Virus record (IMG/VR): IMGVR_UViG_3300043426_000117
Location: 1 to 27,322 of that record
Length of the DNA stretch: 27,322 nt
Source of the DNA: a virus
Reading direction: 5' to 3' (one strand)
The notes under the pieces are model-generated. The model saw only the letters and a program-made list of their open reading frames with translations, had not been told where the DNA came from and did no database searches. How positions within the stretch are numbered: the stretch's first letter is position 1; each line of letters begins with the position of its first letter. Of the stretch, positions 661 through 25,751 are shown in pieces. The position numbers were made by a program, and so were the translations under genes.

Positions 661-1021
661 ATTTGATATCAATGAATACAAAGAAAAAGCCCGAGAGACT
701 GCTGTGTACATGTACCCTGATTATCCTTTGGCAGCACTCGTAGAAGAGGTTGGTGAAGTGATGGGTAAGCTGGCAAAGTTCGGTCGAAAAAATGACCTTC
801 CGCTTGAGATGGTCATGTATTGTGTATCAACTCCTACGTCTTCTTTGCAACAGGAACTTCGTGAGCAGGTGTCTAAGGAAATGGGTGATGTAATCTGGCA
901 ATGGGTTAACCTTTGCCACGAGCTCAACCTCAACCCTGCTCAGGTAATGGCCGATAACATTGAAAAACTCCAAGGTCGCAAAGAGCGTGGCACACTGGAA
1001 GGTTCAGGGGATGAAAGATGA
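653..1021 (+). CDS. MazG-like nucleotide pyrophosphohydrolase
   Basis: This 122-residue protein probably hydrolyses NTP or dNTP to the monophosphate plus pyrophosphate, as all-alpha NTP pyrophosphatases do. Phage MazG proteins have been linked to housecleaning of nucleotides and to tuning of host alarmone levels. Visible motifs are EEVGEV near residues 30-36 and KEMGD near 84-88, matching the EExxE and ExxD metal-binding pairs. A helix with WQWVNLC follows, then an N-x-x-KL-x-x-R tail element. The spacing between the two acidic pairs, about 50 residues, is longer than in classic MazG and fits the insert-bearing phage versions. The gene starts inside the polymerase stop (preceded by AGGTGG) and ends in an ATGA overlap with the ligase, so the three are likely translationally coupled. 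Substrate is unknown. Confidence 0.8.
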   Translation: MLKFDINEYKEKARETAVYMYPDYPLAALVEEVGEVMGKLAKFGRKNDLPLEMVMYCVSTPTSSLQQELREQVSKEMGDVIWQWVNLCHELNLNPAQVMADNIEKLQGRKERGTLEGSGDER

Positions 1022-2142
1022 GTGACACTCTCTATATCAAAGACAACGCAGGGCACCTCCGCTACTGGAAGTGCTATGAGGTTCTCAATGGTCTAGAGAT
1101 TGAATACGGGGTGTGCGGTGGCACGCCCCTTTATCAATCTGAAGACATTGAGGAAGGCAAGGGTGGTCGTGATCAGGATGAACAGATTGCTTCCCGTATT
1201 CAGTCTCGCATTAATAAGCAGCTGGATAAAGGCTATGTATTTGATAAAGAGCAAGCTGCCAGTATGCGACCAGTCAATGCCCTAGGGTTTGTCAAGCCAA
1301 TGCTTGCCAAGAAGTCAGAGGATGTTGACCTCAAGAAGCTGCTGACTCGTGATGTGTATTATCAACATAAGTTAGATGGCAACCGTTGCCTAATTCATAA
1401 TGATGGTACAGGGTTGGTCGCATACACTCGCAATGGTAAGGAGTTCACAACACTCAAGCACATCACTGATAAGCTCAAGAGCATCATTCCAGCGGATGCT
1501 ACACTGGATGGTGAATTGTACTGTCATGGTGTGCCACTTCAGACTATTGTGAGCTGGGGAAAGCGTTTGCAACTTGATACTTTGAAGTTGCAATATCACT
1601 GCTATGACCTTGTTAGCAATGAGGCATTTTCCAATCGCTCTGCCGAGCTAGGAGCGATTCTAACAAATCGAGTTTCTACCCTAGGGGGTAGTATAGCCAT
1701 AGTCGATACTATTCGGATTAGCCCCGATTACGGCGCTACTTTAGGGGGTATCCCAGCTTTAGTAGGTCGTTCTCGGGCTGAAGGGTTTGAGGGTGGCATG
1801 GTTCGCTCTGACTGGACTCTTGAGCGTGGACTATTTGTTCCAGTTGGGTATGAAGATGGCAAGCGTTCTGGCAGCCTGATCAAATGTAAGCTGTGGGACA
1901 ATGCAGAGTTTGAAATTATAGGGGTTGACACTTCCGCTGATGGATGGGCAATCCTGAATTTGAGCAACCCACGTGGGCCTAACTTCTCAGTTAGCTGCCC
2001 AGGGGATGTGCCTTTCAAACACTATGTTCGTGTACACAAGGAGAAGTATATCGGCAAAAAGGTAACTGTTAAGTTTGCATACTGGACCACTGATAATGTT
2101 CCGTTTCATCCAACAGCAGAGGCAATAAGAGACTATGAGTGA
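1018..2142 (+). CDS. ATP-dependent DNA ligase
   Basis: This 374-residue protein seals nicks, for example between Okazaki fragments, using ATP. Nucleotidyltransferase motifs are in order: motif I KLDGNR with the adenylated lysine at about residue 118, RNGKEF at 138-143, motif III LDGELY at 163-168, motif IV EGFEGGMVR at 255-263 and motif V LIKCK at 287-291. An OB-like C-terminal domain follows (FEIIGVD to VTVKFAYW). Residues 1-75 form an extra N-terminal domain with YWKCYEV...IEYGVCGG, then GKGGRD...EQIASRIQSRINKQLDKGYV, like the WGR-type domain seen in some phage ligases. ATG 1018 overlaps the MazG stop (ATGA). Codons for residues 206-250 differ sharply from the rest of the gene (see the island at 1633-1765), although the protein there still looks like a normal ligase. 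Confidence 0.9.
   Translation: MSDTLYIKDNAGHLRYWKCYEVLNGLEIEYGVCGGTPLYQSEDIEEGKGGRDQDEQIASRIQSRINKQLDKGYVFDKEQAASMRPVNALGFVKPMLAKKSEDVDLKKLLTRDVYYQHKLDGNRCLIHNDGTGLVAYTRNGKEFTTLKHITDKLKSIIPADATLDGELYCHGVPLQTIVSWGKRLQLDTLKLQYHCYDLVSNEAFSNRSAELGAILTNRVSTLGGSIAIVDTIRISPDYGATLGGIPALVGRSRAEGFEGGMVRSDWTLERGLFVPVGYEDGKRSGSLIKCKLWDNAEFEIIGVDTSADGWAILNLSNPRGPNFSVSCPGDVPFKHYVRVHKEKYIGKKVTVKFAYWTTDNVPFHPTAEAIRDYE
1633..1765 (+). other. Hairpin-rich, rare-codon island inside the ligase gene
   Basis: Within about 130 bases the codon choice switches to CTA, ATA, GGG, CGA, CGG and TTA, which are scarce in the rest of the ligase. Inverted repeats follow one another. AATCGCTC (1633-1640) pairs with GAGCGATT (1652-1659). 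CTACCC (1676-1681) pairs with GGGTAG (1686-1691) across a TAGG loop. TAGTAT (1689-1694) matches ATACTA (1706-1711), and CTACT (1736-1740) matches AGTAG (1761-1765). The encoded protein is not visibly interrupted. What the element does is unknown. Confidence 0.6.
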
Positions 2143-2360: not shown

Positions 2361-2387
2361 AAAGGCTCCCAAGCGGGAGCCTTTTTT
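2361..2387. terminator. Bidirectional intrinsic terminator between convergent units
   Basis: GGCTCCC (2364-2370) and GGGAGCC (2375-2381) form a perfect 7-bp stem with an AAGC loop. An A-run lies on the left and TTTTTT on the right, so it works as a Rho-independent terminator in both directions. It lies between the stop of the last rightward gene (2356) and the end of the leftward virion operon (2386), and can serve both. Confidence 0.9.
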
Positions 2388-4485
2388 ATTCGCTTTTCAG
2401 CACATCAAGCAACTCTTGATACTTGTCACGAACATAATCTTGAGGTGTCTCAGTTTGAGCCGCAGCACGCTGTATATGGATGCTGGCGTTCGGGTCAAGA
2501 CCATGAGCTGGACTAAGTCTGCGTCCAATGAATGGCATCCTGTTTGTATTCAAGCGGTAGCTCAAACCAAACAAATCCACAGGTCGCATAGCATAGTCAC
2601 GAGCACGCTTCATCAACCCCCTTTTAATAGTATGAGGCTCTGCTTTACCGAGTCCTGTCAAAGCCCCGCCCGCAACATCTTCACCGTGCAAAACATCATT
2701 GTAACGAGCGATGTTCTGGAACTGCTTGATTCTGCCTCCCTTGCCAGTCAAGGTTCGCATCGCTTCGTCGCCACCCATTACTGCTGATGTAATAGCAGTT
2801 GGGTCAACCTTACCCGCTGGTGTCATGCCCTTGTCAAGTAGCAGACGAGTCATCGAGTATCTTTCATTCAGGTCTTTCCATTGCTTGGCAGTTGCAGCAT
2901 TCATGCCACTGAGGAGAGAGTCATCAAGCACAGTCTGCACCTTACGGAGGTTGTCACCAAGGCGCTTATCTCCGCCTTGATATGCTTGGCTGATTTCATC
3001 CTGCAGCCGTGAGCGCAAGCCTTGGTACTGGGTGCCGTTGAATTGGTAGCCCATGAACCTGCCATCACTGCCACGCTGTGGCGAACCCATTTCTGTTTTG
3101 AGTTGCTTTGCAAAACCATTGACAATTGCATAGCGTTGCTTATCAACTGGTGATGTATTGCGATTCCTAGTTGGCTTCAAATCTGCTAGGACTTTGCCAA
3201 CTTCCCGAATCTGACGCAAGCCATATTTGCCAGTTGTGTTGGCCTCAAGAGCAGTGTAGCTGCCTTTGAGGTTTTTCATATGATCAGACAGTTCTCCCTG
3301 AGAAAGCAAATCACGGTCTTTGGTGTTCAGGCCAATTGCCTCACCTGCCATAGCAGTCATACGGCGCTGGTTGGGTCTGTCAACTTGGTTGGCAAACTCT
3401 TGGCCATAAACATCACTATTGCGGATTGCAGCTTCTTCAGTCTGGAGTGCTCTGTTGCCAGTGCGAATCCCAGGTGTGATGTGCAACCCTTGGCGATACA
3501 TTTCCTCAACAATCTTCTTGCCAGCAGCATCCCGCTCGTTGCGTGTTTTGTTCAGCACAGTGATAGGGCCGAACATCCCACTGAGTCCACCAATGAATGA
3601 AGTAACAGCACCCTCTCCAGCAGTGGTATCATATTGACCTGCCCCCTCAGCAGCACCAGTAGCAGTACCCTTGAGGATTGTGTTAAGTTTTTGCTCATAC
3701 TCAGAAGGAAGTCTGGCAGGCTGGTTAAGCATACGCTCAACTTCAGCTGTGTTTCCAAGCTTCCGGTTCATTGCAATGCTACCACTTTTCAGCGGGCCTT
3801 CCAAAGTCTTTCCAACAAGGTTCAGAGCCCTTTCACCTGCAATGCCAGTTGCGAAGTAAGGGAGCATCTCACCAATCATTGTGGAACCAAGGTTCTCACG
3901 CCGAGTGATTTCATAGCGCTCTTTCTCTTTTGCCATGTAATCATCAACTTGCTTATTACGCTCATCAGCTGGAAGATTTTCACCAATTGGCTGATGGTTA
4001 AGAATGTCCTGAACTGCTTGTGGGAAGAACTCAGGTGCAAGAGCAGTCTTTGCTTGGAACTGCTTGCCTATGTGCTTAGCACCCTCGATCACACTGCTGA
4101 TGAATGGGCGTTCTTGCTCAAGCTTCTTGAGTGCTTGGCGCTCCTCATCACCAATGAATGATTTTTCATATTCATTATTGGCATTGATTCGCTTATTTGC
4201 CTCATTGATAGCAATCTTTGGCATACCAAAAGGCAACTGATCTGGCATTGGGATATTAGGCTTAAGGTTCGGCTCGAACCCCGTAGGATTCGCGGCGCTA
4301 GGCCGAACCTCCGGCCCGCTAGGCGCTTCGATAGGGCTACCCTTTAGGGTAGTACCGCCCCCGTTTACGACTTCGCTACGGGCCGGAGATTTAGCCATAG
4401 CTTCTGCTACAGTGGCATCAATCTCTTGTGGAGTTGCCCCATTGGGCACCTCCAACTTACGACCATCTTCAAGTTGAATGATCAT
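2386..4485 (-). CDS. Putative DNA ejection / internal virion protein, 699 residues
   Basis: This is the last and one of the largest genes of the leftward virion operon. It opens with MIIQLEDGRKLEVPNGATPQ, an N-terminal module common at the start of podovirus ejection proteins. A Gly/Ser/Pro-rich linker (residues 30-75) follows, then long helical, Gln/Lys-rich stretches (about 100-560). No transglycosylase or peptidase catalytic motif was recognised. By position and composition it is a candidate for a protein packed in the head and injected with the DNA. ATG 4485 is preceded by GGAG with 6-base spacing. The linker is encoded by a strongly structured DNA island (4265-4388) whose codon use is unlike the rest of the gene. 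A minor tail or head component is the alternative. Confidence 0.6.
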   Translation of the reverse strand: MIIQLEDGRKLEVPNGATPQEIDATVAEAMAKSPARSEVVNGGGTTLKGSPIEAPSGPEVRPSAANPTGFEPNLKPNIPMPDQLPFGMPKIAINEANKRINANNEYEKSFIGDEERQALKKLEQERPFISSVIEGAKHIGKQFQAKTALAPEFFPQAVQDILNHQPIGENLPADERNKQVDDYMAKEKERYEITRRENLGSTMIGEMLPYFATGIAGERALNLVGKTLEGPLKSGSIAMNRKLGNTAEVERMLNQPARLPSEYEQKLNTILKGTATGAAEGAGQYDTTAGEGAVTSFIGGLSGMFGPITVLNKTRNERDAAGKKIVEEMYRQGLHITPGIRTGNRALQTEEAAIRNSDVYGQEFANQVDRPNQRRMTAMAGEAIGLNTKDRDLLSQGELSDHMKNLKGSYTALEANTTGKYGLRQIREVGKVLADLKPTRNRNTSPVDKQRYAIVNGFAKQLKTEMGSPQRGSDGRFMGYQFNGTQYQGLRSRLQDEISQAYQGGDKRLGDNLRKVQTVLDDSLLSGMNAATAKQWKDLNERYSMTRLLLDKGMTPAGKVDPTAITSAVMGGDEAMRTLTGKGGRIKQFQNIARYNDVLHGEDVAGGALTGLGKAEPHTIKRGLMKRARDYAMRPVDLFGLSYRLNTNRMPFIGRRLSPAHGLDPNASIHIQRAAAQTETPQDYVRDKYQELLDVLKSE
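4265..4388 (-). repeat. In-frame palindromic island with two adjacent perfect stems
   Basis: On the coding strand, CTCCGGCCCG (4388-4379) pairs perfectly with CGGGCCGGAG (4318-4309). Adjoining it, AGGTTCGGC (4310-4302) pairs with GCCGAACCT (4273-4265), so the two stems share two bases and could stack. Inside the first stem, CTACCC (4337-4342 on the plus strand) and GGGTAG (4347-4352) form a third hairpin with a 4-base loop. The island encodes residues 33-74 of the ejection protein, a low-complexity Gly/Pro/Ser linker. G+C content and codons (CTA, CCT AGC, GGG) differ from the flanks. It may be an in-frame palindromic insertion or a structured RNA element. Confidence 0.65.
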
Positions 4486-7237: not shown

Positions 7238-8787
7238 CGCTTACCTGCCATTTGGTATTCAAAATCAAGCCCAGTAAGTATGAAGTTTGCAGTTACATCA
7301 GTAGCCATTATGCGGTATGCGTGAAGCACGCCAGAGCTTCTGATATCAACCTTCCTGTCAACGTTTGGCTGGAAGTCAACTGCAGGCTTCCAAGTAACTG
7401 GACCACCTGGATATTGCTGAGAACCTAGTTGCATCTTGACGCTGCTACCACCAACAACATGAGGATATAAACGAGTTACTATCTTTGCAGTGTCCAGACC
7501 ACCTATTGCTAAATCCGTTCTTTCTATTATAGACGAATAAGGCTCAGAATTAAAGCCGAGTATATAATCTAATAAAGCGAACTTATAGGTTGTGCCATTG
7601 TATATGATTCCCATTAACACTGAGTCAAAAGGTGTGGTTGAGTTATCATCCCATGTCTTTACTGACCCATCCCAGCTTTCTGTAGAACCATCCCAAGTTG
7701 ATGATGGTGATGCAAGCCTCCCTATGTCAGCACCAAGGCAACCAGGCAAATCACGTGTTAACCAGCTATCATATTCATAATTGTAAATGAATGCAATATT
7801 TGAATACTTGTTACCTCCCATAGGGAAGCAGAACCATACCTCCTTTTTATTTGAGTGGTGGACAGCAAATGCCTTGCCGTAATTTTTCTTATCAATTGTG
7901 TTCATCCTTGAACGAACACGATTGTTTGCTATTGACTTAATCGTATTGCCATCGTTGCTAAAAACATCACCATCTGAGAGGAAGTAATGAGTGCCATTAA
8001 CATCAACCACTGCGTCCTTGGCAATGAGTCCGACAGTTGTTTGCATTTGCCGTATACGCCAGACATATTGGCCTCCAACATAATCCACTACATTGATACC
8101 ACTCTCTCTATAAATAACAAGAGAATCACGAAGTGAAAGCCCACCAACTATTTTGCCGCCATTTCCACCTAATGCTGAGATGCCTGCAGCACTAGTTTTG
8201 TCAAGCGGGTTCCAATTCAGAGGGACTGCGCCAACATCCGCTGGTGCTGACCATCTGATGCCATCAAACTTCTCAACACCATTGTCAAGAAGACCCAATG
8301 CAAACAAATACTGCTTATGCACAACAAGAATATTGCAACTCTGGTTAACTTGCTTCCATGTCTGTGTGTTTGTCCAAGGAAGAGATTTGAAACGGCTTGC
8401 TGCAGCATCCATATACATGGGTCCAAGGATTGGATGGCACAACAGCGGGATGCCTGATATGGCGCCTGATGACCATGCTTCTTCATCCGTGATTGTTTGC
8501 ATAAAATCAGGCGTCACATTAGAGAATGCAGAGACATATGAATAAACTTTGTTTTTTCCAGATACAAACCATACATCACCAGCACTTGACTTAACAAAGA
8601 ATAATGAATGCGGGATTGCATCAACTGGCAAGTCAGCAATATTCATGTGACCACCAAATGGTGTTAGCCCACCATTCTGCATCCTCAAATTCACTGAACG
8701 AGTTATGAAATCTTTCGCCAGATCAGTTGGATTTATATCAGTGTTAAGTCCAGCAACTGAAAAGTTGCCAATGCTGTATGATGGCAT
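7234..8787 (-). CDS. Tail nozzle-like protein
   Basis: This 517-residue protein is rich in beta strands with repeated blade-like motifs: NVRGG-like NLRMQNGGLTPFGG near residues 33-46, LRDSLVIYRESGINVVDYVG, VWRIRQMQTTVGLIAKDAVV, HYFLSDGDVFSNDG, KEVWFCFP, and IAFIYNYEYDSWLTRDLPG. This pattern is familiar in short-tailed phages, where the nozzle or P22 gp10-like protein forms a beta-propeller ring below the adaptor and closes the DNA channel. Position agrees: adaptor and fibres are upstream in the same operon. A region of altered codon use lies at about 7498-7592. Assignment to nozzle rather than another tail protein is by resemblance. Confidence 0.7.
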   Translation of the reverse strand: MPSYSIGNFSVAGLNTDINPTDLAKDFITRSVNLRMQNGGLTPFGGHMNIADLPVDAIPHSLFFVKSSAGDVWFVSGKNKVYSYVSAFSNVTPDFMQTITDEEAWSSGAISGIPLLCHPILGPMYMDAAASRFKSLPWTNTQTWKQVNQSCNILVVHKQYLFALGLLDNGVEKFDGIRWSAPADVGAVPLNWNPLDKTSAAGISALGGNGGKIVGGLSLRDSLVIYRESGINVVDYVGGQYVWRIRQMQTTVGLIAKDAVVDVNGTHYFLSDGDVFSNDGNTIKSIANNRVRSRMNTIDKKNYGKAFAVHHSNKKEVWFCFPMGGNKYSNIAFIYNYEYDSWLTRDLPGCLGADIGRLASPSSTWDGSTESWDGSVKTWDDNSTTPFDSVLMGIIYNGTTYKFALLDYILGFNSEPYSSIIERTDLAIGGLDTAKIVTRLYPHVVGGSSVKMQLGSQQYPGGPVTWKPAVDFQPNVDRKVDIRSSGVLHAYRIMATDVTANFILTGLDFEYQMAGKR

Positions 8788-19062: not shown

Positions 19063-19084
19063 GGTGTTTGTCTCATCTGCTAAA

Positions 19085-19112
19085 AGGCTACCTCTAATAG
19101 AGAGCCTAGCCT
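19085..19112 (-). promoter_or_regulatory. Hairpin in the virion operon leader
   Basis: AGGCTA (19085-19090) pairs with TAGCCT (19107-19112), enclosing CTCT (19092-19095) and AGAG (19099-19102). It lies 23 bases before the small terminase start and would be in the 5' leader of the virion mRNA. It may affect translation or mRNA stability. Confidence 0.45.
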
Positions 19113-19222
19113 AAAAGAGGCCTAAAGTAAAGAGGATAGTTAAAATATTTTGTGTAATGACCTAGCAGATGGAAGATTGAATATAAAATTATAGGATAGA
19201 GGCAACTGGACTGTGTTTTCTG

Positions 19223-19237: not shown

Positions 19238-19428
19238 AGGAGGAGGGGTACTGGGTGTGTGAAAAGTGTGATGGAATTGCGTGAGCAGGACACCTCGGCC
19301 TTGGACTGCTGCATCACCCCCTCCCCCACCCATCCACCGCTTGCCCTGACATGCTGGCCATAGCCCTCCACACCTCTACACTTCCAGACGTCTATCCCTC
19401 TGGCCGTCTAGCCTTCCACCTGCGCGCG

Positions 19429-19438
19429 TATATAAAGG
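19429..19438 (+). promoter_or_regulatory. TATATAAAGG motif, candidate phage promoter element
   Basis: TATATAAAGG lies in the control region upstream of the early genes. The same 10-mer recurs at 24323-24332 and a variant, TATATAAATA, at 25651-25660, all in intergenic DNA with rightward genes downstream. Repetition at gene-start regions is the only evidence. Confidence 0.35.
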
Positions 19439-19685
19439 AAGGAAAGCGGATATAACTATCAGATATAAGTATCCCACTGCTTATTCCTAACTAATCTTTA
19501 CTTCTATCCTAACTGGACTATAGTTATCTCACAGGTCGGGAATAGACCCAGATAGGGGGGAACCTCTATAAGTAGCTCTCTCCTAGCGTAAGAAGTAGGG
19601 GCGACCTTAGAAAAGAAGTAGCTTTACTAATATCGGAAAACGTACTACCTTTATAATCGAATACTTTGAACAACTGGAGAATACT

Positions 19686-20049: not shown

Positions 20050-20700
20050 ATGAAAACCATCATCGAGCTTATGACTGCCCTTTCCGCTCAATCTAACATT
20101 GGCGAAGGTGCGCGCATCGCTATGGCCTCTGGTCTGGCTGGGGCTAAAGACATCTATCTGGCTTGGGGCAAGGAAAAGGGTGAGTCTCTCAAGACGCTCA
20201 ATGAGCAGTGGAAGGTCATTGAGGATGAGGTCAAGCCAGCCAAGCGGGCAGGTGCCAGTGGGTTCGCAGCCATGTACTATGACTGGCTGGCAGAAGCAAG
20301 TCGCACTGAGCAAGAGGCGCGTGACCTTATCATGGGCAACGAGTCACAGAACGTTCGCAACCACCTCACTCACTATCTCAACATCTGGGCACTTTGCGAG
20401 ACTGTGCGCCAAGGTCAGAAGGTGGCCCGCTCTCTTTCCGCTGAGAAAGTTGAGGGTGAGCCAGCTGAGAAGGCACCCAAGATCAAACAGGCAAAAGAGC
20501 CAGAGTTTGTCTATGACGCTGCGCACCCCTTTGCCTGTGAGAAGTCAGCAGCGGAAACCTTGCTGCGCCAAAAGAATCTTGTGGCCAAAAAGCGTGACCT
20601 TGCCACCCTGTTGGTGGGTGCTGAGATGGAAGGCCCAAGCCAAGAAGGGTTCAAGGTTATCCTTCGCAACACCAAGAAAAGCCTCAAGATTGAGGAATAA
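20050..20700 (+). CDS. Early helical protein, 216 residues, unknown
   Basis: ATG 20050 was chosen over 20035 because CTGGAG sits 7 bases before it and the same 15-base CTGGAGAATACTATG starts the previous gene. The product is helical and charged (IGEGARIAMASGLAGAKDIY, then YDWLAEASRTEQEARDLIMG). A Lys/Pro/Glu linker (VEGEPAEKAPKIKQAKEPEF) leads to a basic C-terminal part ending KKSLKIEE. No enzyme motif was seen. Codon use is of the common type for this genome and the G+C is high, suggesting strong expression. It may be a nucleic acid- or host-binding early protein; this is not shown by sequence. Confidence 0.8.
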   Translation: MKTIIELMTALSAQSNIGEGARIAMASGLAGAKDIYLAWGKEKGESLKTLNEQWKVIEDEVKPAKRAGASGFAAMYYDWLAEASRTEQEARDLIMGNESQNVRNHLTHYLNIWALCETVRQGQKVARSLSAEKVEGEPAEKAPKIKQAKEPEFVYDAAHPFACEKSAAETLLRQKNLVAKKRDLATLLVGAEMEGPSQEGFKVILRNTKKSLKIEE

Positions 20701-20713
20701 GGGGTGGCCAGTA

Positions 20714-20761
20714 GGGGGATAAGGGCTTGAAATAGGGGGTTTATAGAGGGATATTAGAGGG
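20714..20761 (+). other. Plus-strand G-quadruplex candidate
   Basis: Five G-tracts of 5, 3, 5, 3 and 3 bases (20714-20718, 20723-20725, 20735-20739, 20748-20750, 20759-20761) are separated by loops of 4, 9, 8 and 8 bases. Some loops exceed the usual 7, so stability is uncertain. Confidence 0.45.
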
Positions 20762-20769
20762 ATAGTAGT

Positions 20770-20817
20770 AAGGTAAGTATATAATCTATATAGAGTTTTT
20801 ATATACTTTCTTACCTT
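20770..20817. repeat. 15-bp AT-rich inverted repeat with a 4-base bulge
   Basis: AAGGTAAGTATATAA (20770-20784) is matched by TTATATA (20799-20805) and CTTACCTT (20810-20817), with CTTT as a bulge and a 14-base loop. It lies exactly between the G-rich and C-rich blocks, which would extend it into a longer imperfect hairpin. Confidence 0.7.
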
Positions 20818-20819
20818 CT

Positions 20820-20850
20820 CCCCTAACCCCCTACTTTCCCCCGTTCCCCC
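20820..20850 (-). other. Minus-strand canonical G-quadruplex motif
   Basis: On the minus strand there are G-tracts of 5, 5, 5 and 4 bases separated by loops AAC, AAAGTA and TTA. This satisfies the G3+N1-7 rule comfortably. It would form when this strand is single-stranded, for example during leftward transcription or replication. Confidence 0.7.
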
Positions 20851-21119
20851 TTGGGACTCTTTAGACACCCTCTCCCCCCCTCTCTCTCTCTCTCTAGTAG
20901 GGGGATATTTTAGGGGTCTATCCGGTTTTTTAAGGAAAAACCCCTTATAAAACCTATACTTAATAAATCCCTATTAACTTTTTTGTAGGGGTATAGCTAG
21001 TTTCGAGTAGGGGAATAGGGGGATAATAGATTTCTAGGGTAAAAAAAACCTTATAAATCAATAACATCACCCTGAAATAGAATCCCCCTACTATATTAGA
21101 CTCGATAGGATATTATATT

Positions 21120-21395
21120 ATGACCAGCAAGACATATGAGTTAAGCACAATGCCCAGCCCTGAGAACCCAACAGGAATCATCGCAAGCGGATTAAGTGAG
21201 GCACAGGTGTATGATTGCCTCCGCTCGCAGTTTGCTAATTTCAATACATTCAGCGAATCACTGCGGTATCGGCTTGGGATGCACGGATCACATGGCACAG
21301 CACGTTTTATGGTTGAGCAGTCTAGCACATTCAAAGCAGGTTATGCAGCACCACAATCTGCTCCAGCATACGCATTTGTAACACGTGAGAAATAA
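21120..21395 (+). CDS. 91-residue unknown early protein
   Basis: ATG 21120 follows AGGA with 9-base spacing; ATG 21150 is an alternative. The product (MTSKTYELSTMPSPENPTGI, then LSEAQVYDCLRSQFANFNTF and a Gly/His/Ser-rich end) has one clear helix and no recognised motif. It is the first gene after the non-coding block at 20701-21119. Confidence 0.6.
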   Translation: MTSKTYELSTMPSPENPTGIIASGLSEAQVYDCLRSQFANFNTFSESLRYRLGMHGSHGTARFMVEQSSTFKAGYAAPQSAPAYAFVTREK

Positions 21396-24128: not shown

Positions 24129-24263
24129 ATGTACTATATATTTGTTGGGTTTGTAGTGTGGTTGGTTTGCCAAATCATTCCGTTTTTGGCAGGTTTTGCA
24201 GCCATGTTATTCTGGCTGTTTATAATTGGCTTCATGACTTCCATCATTCTTGGAATCGCCTAG
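24129..24263 (+). CDS. 44-residue two-TM protein, holin candidate
   Basis: AGGAGGT with 8-base spacing precedes ATG 24129, a strong ribosome site. The product is almost wholly hydrophobic, with two membrane segments (IFVGFVVWLVCQIIPFLAG and MLFWLFIIGFMTSIILGI) and almost no charge. Two-TM small proteins upstream of an endolysin are typical class II-like holins. It is shorter than usual holins (about 70 or more residues), so the assignment is tentative. Confidence 0.55.
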   Translation: MYYIFVGFVVWLVCQIIPFLAGFAAMLFWLFIIGFMTSIILGIA

Positions 24264-24419
24264 CCTAACCCCTAGCCTATAGGTCGCCGTCTATAGGGCT
24301 CTTTCTCTATATCCGGCGACTCTATATAAAGGCTATACTATCCTATAGCCTAGCGAGCCGCGCCGAATACGGGCCCCCTATCGCCTATCGCGTGGTGGGA
24401 CTCGTAAGGAGCTAACACT
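24264..24419 (+). promoter_or_regulatory. Structured intergenic island
   Basis: About 155 bases with two good hairpins: GTCGCCG (24283-24289) with CGGCGAC (24314-24320), and AGGCTATA (24330-24337) with TATAGCCT (24344-24351). TATATAAAGG (24323-24332) overlaps both. Composition (CTA, TAG, GGGCCCCC) is unlike adjacent genes. It could hold a promoter and an mRNA-processing site; AAGGAG for the next small gene lies at its end. Confidence 0.5.
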
Positions 24420-25377: not shown

Positions 25378-25626
25378 ATGTGCAACTACGTAACAAGAAT
25401 CAGACTTGTCTGTGCAGTTAATGTCATAGACACTGATTTGCCGAAAGAGAAATGGACTTACTGTGAGTACCACTATCCGCTATGTGAAGGAGCAGCTCAA
25501 TGCCTTACAGACAATATTGATCTGGTCACTGAGGATGACAACATTGATCAATTCTGGTTGGAGTATTATGTACCATTAGATGAAGCATGGCACAGAGCTT
25601 CAGACTTGCCAGCAATCTGTTTATAG
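25378..25626 (+). CDS. 82-residue Cys-rich, acidic unknown protein
   Basis: ATG 25378 was chosen because GGAGG lies 6 bases before it; the longer GTG at 25330 lies across the hairpin and has no ribosome site. The product has CNYVTRIRLVCAVNVIDTDL, then YCEYHYPLCEGAAQCL with four cysteines in the first half of the protein, and an acidic end (DNIDQFWLEYYVPLDEAWHR). The cysteines could bind metal, but no known finger pattern was recognised. Confidence 0.65.
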   Translation: MCNYVTRIRLVCAVNVIDTDLPKEKWTYCEYHYPLCEGAAQCLTDNIDLVTEDDNIDQFWLEYYVPLDEAWHRASDLPAICL

Positions 25627-25751
25627 GCGCTTTAATATAACGGGGCGGTCTATATAAATAAAAGTTATTAGCGCGCCCCTTAATATAGATATATAATTTA
25701 TGGACTATTTGCAGATTTCCTGCAGATAGATTGTTCGGTTGAGGCAGACCT
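25627..25751 (+). promoter_or_regulatory. Intergenic control region before the primase gene
   Basis: GGGGCG (25642-25647) and CGCCCC (25674-25679) form a stem enclosing TATATAAATA (25651-25660), a candidate promoter element. TTTAATATA (25631-25639) and TTAATATA (25681-25688) flank it as direct repeats. GAGG for the primase gene is at 25741-25744. Confidence 0.45.

Follow-up and report, generated by a model that had tools for sequence, protein, structure and literature searches.

The stretch of DNA analysed here (the window) comprises the 27,322 bases of a virus record; its late genes, encoding terminase, portal, scaffold, major head and tail proteins, lie on the minus strand and its early genes on the plus strand. 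Positions 85–2142 hold early, plus-strand genes: the end of a DnaE-type polymerase gene, a MazG-like gene and a ligase gene. The closest annotated relatives are Cronobacter phage vB_CsaP_Ss1 and the Vibrio phages VA-RY-3 and PVA7, and the gene names S01–S57 used below follow Ss1. Five lineages were compared: the window (G000, a partial record), Ss1, VA-RY-3, PVA7 and an uncultured 42-kb contig (G001). The ligase DNA is identical in the IMG/VR contigs L001 and L002, which excludes a one-off assembly error, and the ligases of related lineages are about 54–60% identical to that of the window. In the sequence, a hairpin resembling a terminator, with T residues after it, can be read at 2354–2389, between the convergent ligase and late genes. 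The PVA7 record (L015) has 98 CDS, many of them broken, with the polymerase, ligase and portal genes each in pieces, which looks like the product of frequent sequencing indels.

A preliminary description of this DNA had reported an abrupt change in codon use within the ligase gene, accompanied by a cluster of hairpins, at 1633–1765. The codon change is real: among 5,087 overlapping 45-codon windows from 19 ORFs, none scores higher for rare codons than the one that begins at 1630 (z 5.19), and the 45 codons originally delimited score 4.8 on the same scale. What had been overlooked is that 1633–1765 contains only 4 CA/TG dinucleotides, against 23.6 expected at the density of the window (0.177 CA/TG per nt). 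Islands of this kind were called as maximum-scoring segments for CA/TG scarcity. Eight were found in the window, with scores of 12.2–53, and the best-fitting limits of the one in the ligase are 1642–1778; the second coding island, in the gene at 2386–4485, coincides with the third-ranked rare-codon window (z 4.07). Simulating the window 100 times with an order-3 Markov model gave a top score of 8.2, compared with 53 for the best real segment, and CA/TG-free runs of 147, 142, 124, 118 and 118 nt occur in the window. Among the strand-symmetric dinucleotides, CA/TG gave the strongest islands in all four genomes scanned (the window, Ss1, VA-RY-3 and PVA7). Outside the islands, the window is CA/TG-rich (observed/expected about 1.4) and CG-poor (0.48); CA/TG in VA-RY-3 is much nearer 1. 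The features of the window are as follows:

1018–2142, plus strand: ATP-dependent DNA ligase gene, carrier of an island (PF01068, E 1.8e-14; phrog_114, E 5.9e-53)
1642–1778, unstranded: CA/TG-poor island in the ligase gene (3 CA/TG; 24.3 expected at window density, 18.9 for the protein)
4250–4395, unstranded: CA/TG-free island inside the S23-like late gene (0 CA/TG)
7508–7590, unstranded: weaker CA/TG-poor island inside the S17-like late structural gene (1 CA/TG)
19079–19150, unstranded: non-coding CA/TG-free island beside a late-gene start (0 CA/TG)
19422–19666, unstranded: non-coding CA/TG-poor island in the divergent late/early region (7 CA/TG; 43.4 expected)
20050–20700, plus strand: S01-like gene, a paralogue of S35 by homology and a candidate DNA-binding protein gene, beside the largest island
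20710–21120, unstranded: largest island, non-coding, 411 nt (8 CA/TG; 72.8 expected)
24252–24392, unstranded: intergenic CA/TG-free island (0 CA/TG)
25619–25700, unstranded: CA/TG-free island upstream of a DUF3987-like gene, the S45 homologue (0 CA/TG)

The largest island carries repeated G-rich words such as TAGGGGGATA, together with a CT-repeat, and AGGATAA repeats are found at the same station in VA-RY-3. These words and repeats are possibly origin iterons, and the G-rich repeats make it possible that 20710–21120 is a replication origin or an early promoter region.

The scarcity of CA/TG exceeds what protein sequence and codon use would impose. Coding islands, which had been preselected as low-CA/TG extremes, were each simulated 20,000 times with the protein and its own codon use fixed, and all nine tested fall 3.7–6.6 SD below the expected CA/TG. 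For the codon-rounded segments of the window, observed and simulated counts were 3 versus 18.9 in the ligase, 1 versus 16.9 in S23 and 2 versus 10.0 in S17, with none of the 20,000 simulations as low as the ligase and S23 islands. The corresponding counts in Ss1 were 0 versus 20.6 (ligase), 4 versus 15.9 (S11) and 4 versus 12.2 (S17), and elsewhere 1 versus 13.7 (L026 ligase), 4 versus 13.1 (VA-RY-3 ligase) and 5 versus 24.7 (L027 DnaE). The codons for Met, Trp, Cys, His and Gln all need CA or TG; summed over the nine coding islands, these residues number 3 against about 43 expected. On the sense strand of seven coding islands, CA occurs 11 times against 63.9 expected and TG 4 times against 62.1. 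As both are scarce on that strand, the property is strand-symmetric and apparently one of double-stranded DNA.

TA and CG are raised in the islands; in the coding ones, their counts lie at or close to what the removal of CA/TG would itself produce (z 1.4 and −2.3). Residual CA/TG in the islands amounts to 0.0151 per nt; the remaining CA sites are seldom GCA/TGC (6 versus 19.7 expected), and CAT contexts total 13 versus 22.1. After CA/TG exclusion, coding islands have 60 TC against 84.4 expected and 81 GA against 89.4. The TC+GA count in non-coding islands is 307 against 391.4, from shuffles that ended at zero CA/TG instead of the observed number, and CG, CC/GG and AC/GT deviate there too.

The exclusion of CA/TG would account for the rare codons, the extra hairpins and the missing Met, Trp, Cys, His and Gln residues of the islands. 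The perfect 8-bp inverted repeat described there is present (1633–1640/1652–1659). Hairpin richness, on the other hand, is not unusual: 1633–1765 has three perfect stems of at least 6 bp, and 15 other 133-nt windows of the ligase have 0–3. The folding energy of 1633–1768 (−41.8) is likewise ordinary: 16% of synonymous shuffles within the island, and 14% of resamples by codon usage, fold at least as stably. Compared with a CA/TG-free synonymous null, the ligase island has a minimum free energy of −46.7 versus −44.2 ± 4.0 and 2 stems versus 1.75. A structured RNA element was rejected on the basis of this agreement and because Rfam gave no match; neither Rfam nor tRNA matches were found anywhere in the window. 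Compensating frameshifts in the ligase were also rejected, the other frames being full of stops. The S23 island folds more strongly than its CA/TG-free null (−63.3 versus −45.8 ± 5.1), an exception that tells against a complete by-product account of hairpins; its stem count of 3 is not significant, as 19% of simulations reach 3.

Synonymous sites in the ligase island vary as freely as elsewhere, with synonymous differences between L026 and PVA7 at 11 of the 49 codons within it and at 73 of the 323 outside. Freely varying synonymous sites and ordinary folding had been put forward as grounds for dismissing the region, yet a real signal exists, because the constraint lies in composition. The proposal of an overlapping DNA signal that constrains synonymous choice is therefore supported, in an unexpected form: the constraint bears on a single dinucleotide step (CA/TG) on both strands rather than on a particular sequence or an RNA structure. 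A recombined segment is not supported, since all five lineages are poor in CA/TG at this station, no outside source was found and other islands are non-coding; BLAST of 1600–1800 against phages and plasmids gave no meaningful match. Nor is a translation-pausing zone, given that five of the eight islands in the window are non-coding and that the loss of CA/TG itself brings about the rare codons.

The islands recur at fixed stations of the genome, counted here at a segment threshold of 9 in the five lineages. An island is present in all five at the ligase, at the ori-like region beside S01 and upstream of S45, and in 4/4 both upstream of S35 and upstream of S40, genes that the window does not reach. 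The divergent late/early region has an island in four of the five lineages (absent in G001). Three of the five have one inside S23, at differing places in the gene, and three have a weak one inside S17 (the window, Ss1 and VA-RY-3, the last only at the lower threshold of 8). The ligase station, where the early operon ends, is also poor in CA/TG in Ss1, VA-RY-3, PVA7 and G001, despite different codons and residues. In L021, the gene after the polymerase reads in translation as a different ligase, unmatched by the Ss1 ligase, and the island covers its 3' end and the space beyond; in L027 and L136, a coding island lies in the N-terminal part of DnaE. These positions argue that the station matters rather than the gene. 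That the ligase island belongs to a set of CA/TG-exclusion islands at shared genomic stations is near certain.

Coding and non-coding islands alike are about 70–430 bp long, with a GC content from 0.32 to 0.61. Sigma70-like promoter elements are often found in the intergenic islands (for example, at Ss1 S35, Ss1 S01 and VA-RY-3 S40), while the coding islands have no clear promoter. The usual −35 element, TTGACA, contains both TG and CA. Two promoter-like elements of intergenic islands have instead TAGACG or TAGACT as the −35 element, with no CA/TG in it, followed after 17 bp by TATAAT or TATACT. The S01 promoter-like element has some CA/TG nearby.

The islands and their flanks diverge at about the same rate, while the changes in the islands tend to spare CA/TG. 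Between L026 and PVA7, 1 of 16 differences in the ligase island touches CA/TG, where 34% would by chance (P 0.012). Upstream of S35, 2 of 19 differences do (P 0.026), and between the window and L032 8 of 35, which is not significant (P 0.11). Over the pooled pairs, 11 of 70 differences touch CA/TG against a chance fraction of 0.337 (P 0.0006). These binomial P values, the first two of them nominally significant by themselves, are preferred to a Fisher comparison, which uses flanks that have CA/TG to lose. Purifying selection on the CA/TG dinucleotide is indicated.

Outside this group, strong islands are sparse. Counting islands that score 12 or more, the six Ss1-like loci have 31 in 0.175 Mb, compared with 1 in 1.70 Mb for 80 T7-like loci and 2 in 0.218 Mb for 17 LUZ24-like loci. 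Seven named phages (LUZ24, BroderSalsa, Carpasina, T7, M6, phiW-14 and T5), represented by whole or part records totalling 0.331 Mb, have none. A further 76 more distant DnaE relatives have 7 islands in 1.16 Mb, among which those of L178, L179, L136 and L145 resemble the Ss1-like islands and that of L166 is just AT-rich. The segments in L178 (12720–12916) and L179 (12750–12913) are CA/TG-poor, CTAG-rich and directly follow the DnaE gene, and these loci have no S35 match. Two uncultured contigs only distantly related by polymerase, L197 (7575–7894) and L207 (17785–18104), share the same 320-nt CA/TG-poor, non-coding stretch rich in palindromes and hairpins, with GGAGGCCTCC repeats. Low island scores are unspecific, because promoter regions of T7 and LUZ24 reach 9–11. 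When 89 loci were scanned for islands scoring at least 14 by dinucleotide, CA/TG gave 28 (the Ss1-like family included), AA/TT 13, AT 5, TA 5, GC 4, CG 3, AC/GT 2 and CC/GG 2. Some S35-bearing phages that lack CA/TG islands have stretches poor in AA/TT or AAA in a di- and trinucleotide scan; those read in L135 and L139 look like low-complexity repeats.

The explanation that we favour, tentatively and at somewhat less than even confidence, is that the islands are zones cleared of sites for a putative CA/TG-directed DNA activity, often at promoters. An activity on CA/TG steps in double-stranded DNA would spoil the stations, and the sites would consequently be removed there. Such an activity could be a DNA modification, an enzyme that nicks or cuts, or a CA/TG-preferring DNA-coating protein, of the phage or of the host. 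Intergenic islands would stay open for RNA polymerase, and those inside genes would leave junctions or internal control sites accessible. The promoter-like elements without CA/TG in the intergenic islands fit stations kept open, and, since almost no CA/TG is tolerated across tens to hundreds of bases, every site seems to count, as for an enzyme. Against this explanation stand the coding islands without a clear promoter, so that a single role for all islands is only assumed, and the non-significant avoidance in the window and L032 taken alone, as well as the distribution of S35, the absence of the five modification families searched for and the lack of islands in the examined parts of M6 and phiW-14, the last three considered below. 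With similar reserve, the islands may be read as a genome-wide dinucleotide code, in which the CA/TG-rich body of the genome would be marked or covered by a new phage or host activity (a modification, nickase or coat protein with CA/TG specificity), the CA/TG-free promoters, origin and operon junctions would be left open, and the proteins encoded across the stations would have been driven to dispense with Met, Trp, Cys, His and Gln.

A specific form of this explanation, which we regard as doubtful, is that a base is modified in TG/CA context and the islands are left unmodified. Thymine hypermodification in TG/TC context is published for phages M6, ViI and phiW-14 (PMC6449724). Like the islands, this chemistry of phage DNA obeys a rule set at the level of dinucleotides, mainly in TG context, but these phages are not described as clearing TG from islands. 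The low residual CA/TG density would suit an enzyme acting at every site. The shortfall of TC/GA in both coding and non-coding islands also points this way, but it is not unique in view of the other deviations in non-coding islands. M6 and phiW-14 showed no such islands in the 50 kb of each examined. The 5hmdU DNA kinase (PF18723) and the hydroxymethylase type of thymidylate synthase (PF00303), both present in M6 and phiW-14 as controls, were detected in none of the five Ss1-like records, of which G000 is partial; Ss1 carries Thy1/ThyX instead. The methyltransferase families PF01555 (N6/N4), PF00145 (C5) and PF05869 (Dam-type) were likewise not detected in these records. A Pfam and PHROGs scan of the uncharacterised genes of Ss1 and VA-RY-3 gave HNH nucleases, Thy1, DUF3310, DUF3987, DUF669, AAA_24, a Cas4-type exonuclease, an RNase H and, in VA-RY-3 only, a sulfotransferase; no CA/TG rule is known for any of them. 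This sulfotransferase-like gene (PF13469; L011, 21766–22521) lies between the homologues of S32 and S30, a place taken in Ss1 by an HNH endonuclease gene.

Binding rather than modification would be involved if the S35 and S01 proteins coated DNA with a preference for CA/TG (GCA/TGC) and the islands kept promoters open, a possibility that we consider unlikely. S35 and S01 are distant paralogues adjoining islands (29481–30110 and 100–723 in L010; 20050–20700 in the window). Among 50,697 phage records, matches to S35 were confined to Ss1-like phages, as were those to S01 among cultured records. The predicted structure of S35 is all-helical (pLDDT 84), with a weak Foldseek match to the 'D5 protein' of Vibrio phage vB_ValS_X1 (probability 0.93, E 0.16, TM 0.30) and middling matches to helix-turn-helix-type folds (Z 4–5.7); the S01 model was of low confidence and was not used. 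S35 and S01 are putative tandem helix-turn-helix, DNA-binding proteins, and only candidates. Against the PDB, their profile search gave nothing significant and Foldseek no match below E 0.001. T5 D5, annotated as a DNA-binding protein required for replication and late transcription, belongs to phrog_323 (D5-like transcriptional regulator), a family that it matches at 1.2e-71 and that matches neither S35 nor S01. S35, weakly matched in fold to a D5 protein, may have a tandem helix-turn-helix, but neither it nor S01 has a sequence-level family match, and the 50 kb of T5 that were scanned contain no islands of this kind.

The distribution of islands bears on the same proposal. Of the 17 loci with an S35/S01 match, 8 have islands scoring 12 or more, compared with 6 of the 72 without a match, an association that, together with the scarcity of residual GCA/TGC, favours a role of these proteins. 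S35 alone as the cause of the islands was nevertheless rejected, given the nine S35/S01 loci that lack an island of this score (two of them short) and the six matchless loci that have one. Among these six, L197 and L207 share one island sequence, and L021 does not cover the S35 region. Under a coat of loose specificity, moreover, isolated sites would be tolerated.

It is quite unlikely, in our view, that the islands are instead recognized positively, by a protein that binds to or polymerizes on DNA whose pyrimidine–purine steps are all TA or CG, for example at sites for DNA organization, replication or packaging. The recurrence of islands every few kilobases and the rise of TA and CG where CA/TG is removed are in line with such recognition. 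However, TA and CG stay near the level expected from exclusion, so that the coding islands select absence alone, and the GC content varies widely; we know of no precedent for a protein that reads only the absence of a dinucleotide. Translation-proofing, whereby control regions would be freed of ATG, GTG and TTG starts on either strand, appears very improbable: CA/TG removal does abolish NTG starts on both strands, and ATG/CAT is somewhat more strictly avoided, but all CA/TG contexts are avoided, including CAG/CTG, and a shield would be superfluous in the coding islands of ligase, DnaE and late genes. A local mutational process in place of selection, such as RIP-like conversion of CA to TA, would raise TA as observed and is scarcely credible, as CG is raised too, the coding islands are stop-free, their proteins remain homologous and the stations persist despite deep divergence.

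Vertebrate CpG islands are likewise local patches of inverse dinucleotide composition that mark control regions, and they are explained by the absence of methylation-driven mutation. In the phages, by contrast, CA/TG is removed almost completely, even in coding sequence, and purifying selection is indicated. In the part of the literature on dinucleotide islands and dinucleotide avoidance that was covered, nothing was found on CA/TG-free phage islands.

If this account is correct, the islands constitute a feature of phage genomes defined by the absence of one dinucleotide, under a rule that overrides both codon and amino-acid choice in essential-looking genes. They also call for caution in reading such sequences, as rare-codon islands and hairpin clusters can arise as by-products of a dinucleotide rule. 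The CA/TG-exclusion islands of Ss1-like phages would then point to an undescribed, dinucleotide-specific DNA activity in infected cells.
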